Shown: positions 4,326 through 4,781 of the stretch, in pieces
How positions within the stretch are numbered: position 1 is the first letter of the stretch
Layout: every line of letters begins with the position of its first letter
Assembly (NCBI GenBank): GCA_946478765.1
Contig: CAMLDH010000212.1
Location: forward strand, 1 to 6,901
Direction of reading: 5' to 3'
DNA length: 6,901 nt
DNA from: an uncultured Oxalobacteraceae bacterium
GTDB taxonomy: Bacteria; Pseudomonadota; Gammaproteobacteria; Burkholderiales; Burkholderiaceae
Notes under the pieces: model-generated
Told to the model about the DNA's origin: nothing
Seen by the model: the letters and a program-made list of their open reading frames with translations, nothing else
Databases searched by the model: none
Translations under genes and position numbers: made by a program

Positions 4326-4327
4326 CT

Positions 4328-4729
4328 CTAACTTGCGCTTTTAGCTCCTTCCCCCTGCAAGGGGGAAGGCTGGGATGGGGGTAAGGTGGTTAAAGCCGCA
4401 GCGATATTCGCCAAGACCCCTTCCAAATTATTCAAAACTTCATTGTTCCAAAATCGCAGAACACGCCATCCTTGCATCTGTAAAAATACGGTTCTCTGTT
4501 CGTCATAAGCCATTTGGTCCTGATGCTGTCCGCCATCGAGTTCAATCACCAATTTTTTATCAATACAGGCAAAGTCTGCAATGTATGGCCCGATTGGATG
4601 CTGGCGACGAAACCGTGCGTCTTGAAGCTGCTTGCCTCGAATTGCTTGCCACAACCGCCGCTCCGCATCGGTCATGTCGGTGCGCAATGCTCTTGCATTT
4701 TCGGTTGTCTGTTTTTTGATACGAAGCAT
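4328..4729 (-). CDS. DUF559 / Vsr-like endonuclease-fold protein
   Basis: Small protein of the DUF559 family, related by fold to very-short-patch-repair and restriction-like (PD-(D/E)XK) nucleases; no cellular role is firmly known. It has 133 residues from ATG 4729, or 141 from ATG 4753, which lies inside the flanking repeat. Visible: an N-terminal NARALRTDMTDAERRLW helix, the hallmark RRQHPIGPYIADFACID (41-57), VIELDGGQH (61-69) with D52, E63, D65 and H69 as likely metal-site residues, and WRVLRFWNNEVL (88-99). The core is intact, so the gene is probably functional. From about residue 116 the tail TLPPSQPSPLQGEG is simply the translated flanking repeat. ATG 4729 is preferred because family similarity begins there and GGTGA lies 5 nt upstream, though that site is weak. 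By hand count 4441-4620 has 83 G/C of 180, against 43 of 60 at 3661-3720 in bioA. Unrelated to biotin or leucine metabolism; likely acquired. Confidence 0.88.
   Translation of the reverse strand: MLRIKKQTTENARALRTDMTDAERRLWQAIRGKQLQDARFRRQHPIGPYIADFACIDKKLVIELDGGQHQDQMAYDEQRTVFLQMQGWRVLRFWNNEVLNNLEGVLANIAAALTTLPPSQPSPLQGEGAKSAS
4347..4382 (-). repeat. 36-bp palindromic repeat, bioA-side copy
   Basis: Inverted copy of the repeat at 4746-4781. Read on the minus strand it starts ACCCCCATCC and ends in a perfect 10-bp stem (arms 4347-4356 and 4360-4369, 3-nt loop). It matches the other copy at 33 of 36 positions by hand alignment; the differences are two in the spacer and one in the loop. It lies inside the DUF559 reading frame and encodes its tail. 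No T-run follows on either strand, so it does not look like a Rho-independent terminator. Confidence 0.9.
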
Positions 4730-4745
4730 TGTGATCACCCGCACC

Positions 4746-4781
4746 ACCCCCATCCTAACCTTCCCCCTTTCAGGGGGAAGG
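4746..4781 (+). repeat. 36-bp palindromic repeat, liuC-side copy
   Basis: Partner of the repeat at 4347-4382 in opposite orientation. It carries ACCCCCATCC, then a perfect 10-bp stem (arms 4759-4768 and 4772-4781, loop TTC). The hairpin faces outward from the DUF559 gene, as in the other copy. It occupies most of the 64-bp gap between the liuC stop and the DUF559 ATG at 4729 and contains the alternative ATG at 4753. I saw no further copies in the window. Confidence 0.9.

Follow-up and report, generated by a model that had tools for sequence, protein, structure and literature searches.

The DUF559 gene described here, from an uncultured Oxalobacteraceae bacterium, lies between two inverted repeats that, judged by their sequence, share the architecture of the BoxC/PIT/intrastrand triplex motif (TM) repeats, namely a hairpin followed by a mirror third strand, and the link between DUF559 genes and TMs is general. 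The arrangement is probably that of a REPtron-like element in which a PD-(D/E)XK nuclease takes the place of the Y1 transposase and acts on its own repeats. A bolder reading, which we put forward tentatively, is that DUF559 proteins may be the missing dispersal enzymes of BoxC/PIT repeats, each a lone Vsr-like PD-(D/E)XK nuclease that recognizes and spreads its own hairpin-plus-third-strand fold; they would then form a class of mobile elements in four phyla with an enzyme unrelated to that of the Y1 REPtrons. Bracketed DUF559 genes were seen in Pseudomonadota, Chloroflexota, some Cyanobacteriota and some Deinococcota. A preliminary description of this DNA had conceived of a nuclease that recognizes or spreads its own palindromes in the manner of RAYTs, an analogy that would fit the present data; the BoxC/PIT/triplex-type identity of the repeats is an addition to it, and what is new here is a gene partner for repeats of a kind long known without one.

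The window, that is, the whole stretch of 6,901 nucleotides that was analyzed, carries the unit in the 468 bp between the stop codon of liuC and the start of bioA (Table 1). Among the inverted repeats listed for the window, the longest pairs positions 4347-4382 with 4746-4781 over 36 nt, with 33/36 identical, exactly as had been aligned by hand. Both repeats carry a perfect 10-bp DNA hairpin with a 3-nt loop on the outward side, which bears out the earlier report of outward stems, and a 3-nt linker and a 9-nt tail on the inward side; the hairpin energies are −10.7 kcal/mol (z −2.6) for the left and −10.8 kcal/mol (z −3.7) for the right repeat against dinucleotide shuffles. A TM finder that requires a stem of 9 (one mismatch allowed) and a mirror tail (two mismatches allowed) recovered both with no mismatch in stem or tail, and the hairpin-plus-mirror-tail motif occurred in 0/200 mononucleotide shuffles of the window. 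The inner 13 nt of each repeat are not spare: nine of them mirror the purine arm of the hairpin (GGGGGAAGG / GGATGGGGG, with a T opposite one A), and it is this feature that identifies the repeat class. The GC content is 47.9% between the repeats and 62.6% outside the unit, in agreement with the lower GC noted before. The only Rfam match on the window had an E-value of 0.72, under the gathering score, and identity as a defense system was rejected, since the PADLOC matches were marginal only (DpdF, 0.0013; Hhe, 0.04).

Table 1. Features of the repeat-bounded DUF559 unit in the window
Feature	Positions	Strand	Basis
Left TM repeat (3′ side of gene)	4347..4381	+	TM finder, hairpin energy
Parts of left TM: stem; loop; stem; linker (CTG); mirror tail	4347-4356; 4357-4359; 4360-4369; 4370-4372; 4373-4381	+	
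Right TM repeat (5′ side of gene), inverted	4747..4781	-	TM finder, hairpin energy
Parts of right TM: stem; loop; stem; linker (TTA); mirror tail	4781-4772; 4771-4769; 4768-4759; 4758-4756; 4755-4747	-	
DUF559 nuclease gene, 141 aa	4328..4753	-	ORF and PF04480
E71-x-D73-G-x-x-H77 codons (predicted nuclease active site)	4523..4543	-	Invariant alignment columns; codons checked
D60 codon (predicted active site)	4574-4576	-	Invariant alignment column
Right outer junction, unit to liuC stop codon	4782..4793	.	Comparison with occupied and empty junctions of relatives
Left outer junction, left TM to bioA start; contains end of DUF559 frame	4326..4346	.	Comparison with occupied and empty junctions of relatives

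The two repeats had been described as enclosing a single DUF559 gene. The family assignment stands (PF04480, E 2.6e-44, 150 bits against a curated cut-off of 20.6), but the gene is not merely enclosed, because it overlaps both repeats: its ATG (4751-4753) lies inside the tail of the right TM, and its frame crosses the entire left repeat, so that about 18 C-terminal residues are translated repeat plus a few bases beyond. These translated-repeat ends (MGV… and …PPSQPSP..GEG) are common to many of 29 aligned homologs. The only other Pfam match, PF18741, was below its cut-off. The AlphaFold model of the protein (mean pLDDT 73, with a higher value in the core) matched, by Foldseek, a Neisseria endonuclease-like protein (3HRL, E 4.7e-7), the catalytic domain of I-Bth0305I (3R3P, E 1.8e-5, TM-score 0.77 by target) and, weakly, Vsr (1CW0, E 4e-3). 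The protein is thus predicted from its model to be a nuclease of the Vsr/I-Bth0305I fold in the PD-(D/E)XK group, as had been proposed, and it scored 18.9 bits with the Vsr model TIGR00632, whose cut-off is 97.85. The E-x-D-G-x-x-H motif is intact in 95/96 TM-paired relatives and also in 56/58 relatives without TMs. One source names DUF559 proteins “very-short-patch-repair endonuclease,” and the Caulobacter protein VsrA, which carries a DUF559 domain, has been proposed as a mismatch-repair nuclease; a methylase mutant requires it for the SOS response, and a repair-like role was proposed for it (PMC12907096). No word starting with “palindrom” occurs in the part of that paper's text available here.

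BoxC/PIT/TM repeats were surveyed by Holder et al. (2015; PMC4666352), who also cite Hoyne and Maher. According to the parts of that survey drawn on here, they occur in many copies, are widespread in bacteria and sometimes form inverted pairs with unequal linkers; 23 copies are tabulated for Escherichia coli MG1655, the flanking genes have no common function, and mobility activities were never found nearby. In vitro, an isolated strand of the E. coli motif folds into a stable triplex; in vivo footprinting did not support a stable triplex, and the sites of the motif are variable and linked with genome instability (PMC4666352). In the window, the third strand fits G.G-C, A.A-T and T.A-T triads. 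The E. coli TM consensus (CCCTCNCCC...GGGNGAGGG N3 GGGNGAGGG) is absent from the window repeats, whose stem is CCTTCCCCCT; having the same architecture and another stem sequence, the window repeat is related to TM_ECO but distinct from it. Copy 9 in the table of the survey (1,351,204-239 of MG1655; PMC4666352) adjoins ycjD, which is annotated as DUF559, and another E. coli strain carries a second intact TM at the 3′ end of ycjD, the counterpart of which is decayed in K-12. The gene and its surroundings are present in 3330 of the 5375 genomes with any match (80% cover). The locus was rejected as a test for an empty site: the three strains examined in which ycjD is absent here (L225, L226, L227) carry efflux genes in the fabI-sapF gap, seen beside fabI or sapF and from one side only in each case, and these leave no clean empty site. 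One E. coli control genome gave no PF04480 match even though MG1655 has ycjD, so either that strain lacks the gene or the search can miss one.

The mirror relationship is maintained across very different stems. When hairpins near DUF559 genes were chosen regardless of their tails, 257 per 345 had strong tails, and among those with a G-rich tail the purine arm was mirrored better by its own tail than by tails belonging to other arms in 262/307 (8.46 versus 7.09 of 9 positions for own and other-type tails). Stems as unlike as GGGAGAGGG, GGGGGAAGG and AGGGGGAGG each retain a matching tail. Since such symmetry is poorly explained by ordinary protein contacts to duplex DNA, the recognized form is likely to be a folded strand, which could be a triplex or another, G-rich structure, for example a quadruplex. 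In a variant near several DUF559 genes (L192, L193, L202, L211 and others), the 3-nt linker has turned into a second hairpin and the mirror tail is retained; this variant possibly constitutes a repeat class of its own. In two genomes (G015 and G016), at the places listed, close pairs of type A repeats mostly have their tails inward and close pairs of type B their tails outward; the linkers of a pair are often unequal (TTA with TCG).

The bracketing of DUF559 genes by TMs was examined in two separate draws. Among the 80 best of 542 confirmed relatives, TMs were present on both sides of 51 loci, on one side of 19 and on neither side of 10, and 41 of the 75 with enough flank were bounded by an innermost inward pair, compared with 0/309 control ORFs, which were called by length and are not annotated genes; when orientation was disregarded, 9 of these 309 control ORFs had TMs on both sides and 87 on one side. 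The other draw was a PF04480 search over 199 Pseudomonadota genomes, from which 89 loci (29 + 60) were taken among the matches listed, leaving out fragments, matches with E above about 2e-29, one locus at a contig end and the rows of genome G012, which was used in the paralog test below. The short-linker finder placed TMs on both sides of 31 of these loci, on one side of 19 and on neither side of 39, with an innermost inward pair at 24/89 versus 0/60 control ORFs (controls with TMs on both sides, 1/60; on one side, 26); both draws combined, no such pair surrounded any of 369 control ORFs. In the second draw, 119 TMs were counted in 64 kb near DUF559 and 19 in 213 kb away from it, an approximately 20-fold difference in density. 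Strong inverted repeats were present at 27 of the 39 TM-blank loci and in 0/585 control intervals (an inverted-repeat score of 14 was reached by 0/585 control intervals in one test and by 8/533 in another). Hairpin-linker TMs, the form present at many of these blank loci, were found on both sides of 21/89 loci with a finder that is post hoc, having been written after the blank loci were viewed, and that gave 7 matches in 205 kb away from the gene. With both TM forms counted, 53 of the 89 sampled Pseudomonadota loci are flanked by TMs on both sides, 26 carry them on one side, and 5 have no TM or inverted-repeat signal; the refuting outcome foreseen earlier, that most DUF559 genes would lack the repeat, did not occur.

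The association extends beyond Pseudomonadota. Among 29 new Chloroflexota loci, taken from the matches listed, TMs were found on both sides of 18, on one side of 7 and on neither side of 4 (19, 6 and 4 after two gene ends were corrected). Orientation varies: the innermost pair is inward at 9/29 Chloroflexota loci and outward at L332, L333, L334 and L336. Numerous DUF559 matches in three Chloroflexota genomes (G384, G361, G408) are partial or weak and perhaps represent units in decay. In the plasmid collection, of which 11 of 44 matching records were examined, two-sided TMs or long inverted repeats were found in Cyanobacteriota (L329, L333, L335, L336), Deinococcota (L332, L334) and Sinorhizobium (L338), and a TM on one side in a Deinococcota plasmid (L328); the pairing was weak or absent at L330, L331 and L337. 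Nine loci on viral contigs comprised two with TMs on both sides (L319, L321), three with long inverted repeats (L320, L322, L324), one with a TM on one side (L323) and three with neither a TM nor an inverted repeat (L325-L327). On a Pseudanabaena plasmid (L335, 1-2270), the DUF559 match and TM pairs lie within one annotated CDS of 4866 bp, as if by in-frame insertion. Two Deinococcus plasmids (L328, L332) have DUF559 between different gene pairs of the hpa cluster in two species, which suggests separate insertions. The cyanobacterial plasmid genes at L330, L333, L336 and L337 adjoin DUF1156 or PglX genes, a possible defense context.

The units are compact and uniform. The 97 with an inward TM on each side have a median length of 451 bp (10-90%, 424-537), and in 77 of them the gene ends inside or past the 3′ TM; no clear rule was found for asymmetry between 5′ and 3′ linkers in TM-paired units. 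On the gene tree, those DUF559 genes that lack short-linker TMs group together (30 changes versus 52 with shuffled labels, 223 rows), and the TM trait is therefore partly bound to lineage.

Each DUF559 gene tends to have a repeat version of its own. Among 28 TM-paired DUF559 paralogs from 11 genomes, the strictly best partner of the left repeat was its own right repeat in 24/28, the observed sum was reached by 0/10,000 within-genome permutations, and paralogs in one genome carry differing repeat types. Across genomes, protein similarity and repeat similarity were correlated at r 0.41 (within-genome permutations, 0.08 ± 0.07; 1/5000 reached r), which is not in itself coevolution, because orthologous loci inherit their flanks and could yield part of the correlation. 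The covariation that the preliminary description had asked about was observed, and it persisted among loci that had no flanking gene in common within the 1.5-4 kb examined: the mean repeat similarity was 0.72 at protein similarities of 0.7-0.8 (n = 10, mostly related Gallionella-group loci that are not independent), 0.62 at 0.6-0.7 (n = 72) and approximately 0.44 below 0.6. This persistence suggests, from sequence comparison, that the gene and its repeats travel together between loci. Some DUF559 loci share flanking genes between species, as in vertical descent. No sign of recent copying of a whole unit was found, the closest same-genome pair among the 28 paralogs having a protein similarity of 0.68; the only identical DUF559 pair seen, in G023, was rejected as unit copying, since it belongs to an identical 8.3-kb duplication without TMs.

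Dispersed copies of the repeats, excluding those flanking the gene, tend to match the resident DUF559 type. They were sorted into four sequence types in 45 DUF559-holding genomes, the types having been assigned from the DUF559 loci examined, in some genomes only a subset of those present. Dispersed type B was present in 9/9 genomes with a B-flanked DUF559 versus 3/36 without (1-2 copies each), type D in 3/3 versus 2/42 and type C in 4/4 versus 8/41. Type A showed the weakest relationship, 17/19 versus 17/26, with p 0.06 at one copy and 0.01 at three; p-values in general overstate independence here, because the loci are related by descent. One genome (G086) has 144 type A copies with no A-flanked DUF559 seen and another (G007) 13 type D copies with no D-flanked one seen, and Rhodanobacter G012 has A, C and D repeat populations together with DUF559 paralogs of all three types. 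Over the 199 genomes, 34 had both the TM pattern and a strong DUF559, 18 the TM pattern only (one with 82 copies), 21 DUF559 only and 126 neither, an odds ratio of 11, or 8.0 when stratified over five genome-size classes with kinship ignored; the TM matches in G194 are poly-G runs, and without that genome the counts become 33/18/22/126. Occurrence at many loci with no connection to DUF559 genes had been named as a refuting outcome. The repeat is indeed dispersed, but its types largely track the DUF559 present.

The liuC-bioA junction was compared in 31 loci, namely L003 of one Oxalobacteraceae genome and 30 bioA loci found among 80 relatives of that genome. In twelve of them DUF559 is lacking and liuC is separated from the aligned bioA start by no more than 60 bp, which supplies the empty site sought in relatives. 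Other junctions without DUF559 measure 92-253 bp (five), 439 bp (one) and 280 bp (L252), and in the remaining nine loci liuC was not found upstream or the junction was unreadable. L003 has a 68%-identical DUF559 with a reported in-frame stop and one intact TM of the window's type. At L230 (1056-1472) and L231 (1058-1480), the same junction is occupied by a DUF559 of 46-47% identity that is flanked on either side by another repeat type, and at L252 (2898-3026) it holds an inward TM pair without a gene, a REPIN/MITE-like derivative. Different units, and in one case a pair without a gene, have therefore occupied this junction, which may be a preferred target. In L232 the junction is near-empty, with a short hairpin, similar to the stem of a TM, at about 1443-1503 that a since-lost unit may have left as a scar.

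Target-site duplications beyond chance were not found at the unit ends: direct repeats of 5 nt occurred in 3/96 units, compared with a mean of 1.4 (maximum 5) after swapping, and those of 6 nt in 2 versus 0.4. This gives no support for a classical DDE transposase, and old insertions may have lost such duplications. The outer flanks of 192 unit ends show a conserved R-Y-Y just outside the stem and nothing more, and the outer 8 nt at the two ends of one unit resemble each other more than those of different units do (3.55 versus 2.46); these two features may mark the true unit ends.

That each nuclease version goes with its own repeat version implies that the DUF559 nuclease probably spreads the TM repeats. 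The model that we consider most likely starts from a unit of about 450 bp laid out as a TM hairpin with an inward tail, the nuclease gene and an inverted TM hairpin. The substrate of the nuclease would be its own repeat type, recognized as a fold, probably in the form of an extruded or single-stranded hairpin or triplex. The enzyme would bind repeat copies and nick or cut them, and repair would do the copying, carrying repeats, gene-less pairs and, now and then, an entire unit into further intergenic sites. On this view, the BoxC/PIT/TM repeats scattered through a genome would descend from DUF559 units that are still resident or have been lost. What was seen directly comprises the bracketing, the match of repeat type to gene lineage, the tendency of dispersed copies to match in type, the presence and absence at one site, the intact nuclease motif and the TM-rich genomes without a detected Y1 transposase. 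Against the model stand the lack of target-site duplications beyond chance and of recent whole-unit copying, the genomes with a TM pattern but no strong DUF559, the type A copies of G086 and type D copies of G007, the mismatch-repair role proposed for VsrA, the footprinting result in E. coli (PMC4666352), the TM pairs that do not face inward and the partly lineage-bound distribution of TMs.

A different role, which we regard as unlikely, is that of a host-maintenance nuclease that resolves or repairs triplex or hairpin DNA or its mismatches; the repeats would then be recognition or autoregulatory sites spread by other means, and the gene would persist because the repeats are harmful. The Vsr-like fold of the model, the need for VsrA in the SOS response of the Caulobacter methylase mutant and the repair-like role proposed for it (PMC12907096, in the part available), the genome instability linked with E. 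coli TM sites (PMC4666352, likewise) and the flanking genes common to some loci across species are all compatible with such a role. However, it does not predict a 450-bp unit ending in matched inverted pairs, one repeat type per paralog, or presence and absence at a single junction with different units.

It is also conceivable, if improbable, that an unlinked transposase acts in trans to move TM pairs as non-autonomous elements and that DUF559 is cargo trapped between copies. The gene-less inward pair at the L252 junction and the genomes with TMs only would suit a passenger, as would the repeated segments of Legionella, which hold a DUF559 gene and a transposase (PMC12308824, in the excerpt used here). 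Against it, no other gene was found inside an innermost inward pair among the control ORFs, and the repeat types are specific to paralogs. In addition, as regards the Y1 family only, transposases were undetected in 16/45 genomes, including the TM-rich G086, G024, G067, G202 and G005, and a TM was present within about 600 bp of 0/30 Y1-transposase loci. Least credible of all, and only barely worth retaining, is that DUF559 is a restriction or Vsr-type mismatch-repair gene with GC-rich flanks that are terminators or palindromes arisen by chance. The repair name used by one source and the neighboring DUF1156 or PglX genes of some cyanobacterial plasmid copies are in its favor, but it is largely contradicted by the TM density near the gene, the pairing and the similarity results; mirror tails and type matching are not features of terminators, and the Vsr model fell far below its cut-off. 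The REPtron-like element with a PD-(D/E)XK nuclease remains the preferred reading.

A full-text search of the open-licence literature found DUF559 together with “repetitive extragenic palindromic” in no paper, and the portions of the open-licence literature mentioning DUF559 that were covered gave no link to repeats of this kind; the nearest are those on the Legionella segments (PMC12308824) and on VsrA (PMC12907096), each in the part covered here. The origin of BoxC/PIT/TM repeats has been unexplained, the survey of these motifs, in the parts drawn on here, never having met mobility activities around them (PMC4666352). With a cognate nuclease it becomes a testable question of enzymology, and the little-characterized DUF559 family gains a likely substrate. 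If the proposal is true, a REPtron-like system built on an unrelated enzyme is added to those known, and the third-strand match, which is kept across stems and hairpin linkers, points to a natural family of triplex-recognizing nucleases.

Comparison with known systems places the unit near several of them. It resembles BoxC/PIT/TM repeats in the hairpin, the short linker, the mirror tail and the many copies, and differs from them, as far as the survey was drawn on, in having a gene partner, many further sequence types and a hairpin-linker variant (PMC4666352). I-Bth0305I is a Vsr-like nuclease that drives the spread of its own DNA. The DUF559 protein shares its Vsr-like catalytic fold (PDB 3R3P), the fold looked for in an EDxHD homing endonuclease; by contrast, the PDB name of I-Bth0305I is that of a mobile intron protein, and the DUF559 units are free-standing and repeat-bounded, the window gene lying between liuC and bioA and in no intron or intein, at a junction that is a short intergenic gap when empty. 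Vsr (PDB 1CW0) and Caulobacter VsrA share the fold and, in the case of VsrA, the DUF559 domain itself, whereas the window protein does not reach the Vsr model and the role proposed for VsrA is one in repair (PMC12907096, in the part available). A classical insertion sequence is not indicated, no target-site duplications beyond chance having been found among the 96 units. The closest likeness is to the REPtron and REP-RAYT systems, as described in the excerpts of the relevant papers used here (Nunvar 2010, PMC2817692; Bertels and Rainey 2011, PMC3116915; Corneloup 2021, PMC8266576): a nuclease gene lies between two inverted palindromic repeats, in the window and in its relatives; the relatives show gene-repeat coevolution and repeat abundance tied to the cognate gene; and gene-less inverted pairs, comparable to REPINs, and a lack of recent duplicate gene copies are common to both. 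On the other hand, the enzyme is a Vsr-like PD-(D/E)XK nuclease instead of a Y1 HUH transposase, of which neither the Pfam matches nor the fold of the window gene gave any sign; the repeat carries a mirror tail, with RYY on its outer side in place of the GTAG of REPs, no GTAG/CGTC tag having been found beside the palindrome at the 192 unit ends; and the DUF559 gene usually runs into its own 3′ repeat. The unit is therefore REPtron-like by organization and is not a member of that group by its enzyme and its repeat.
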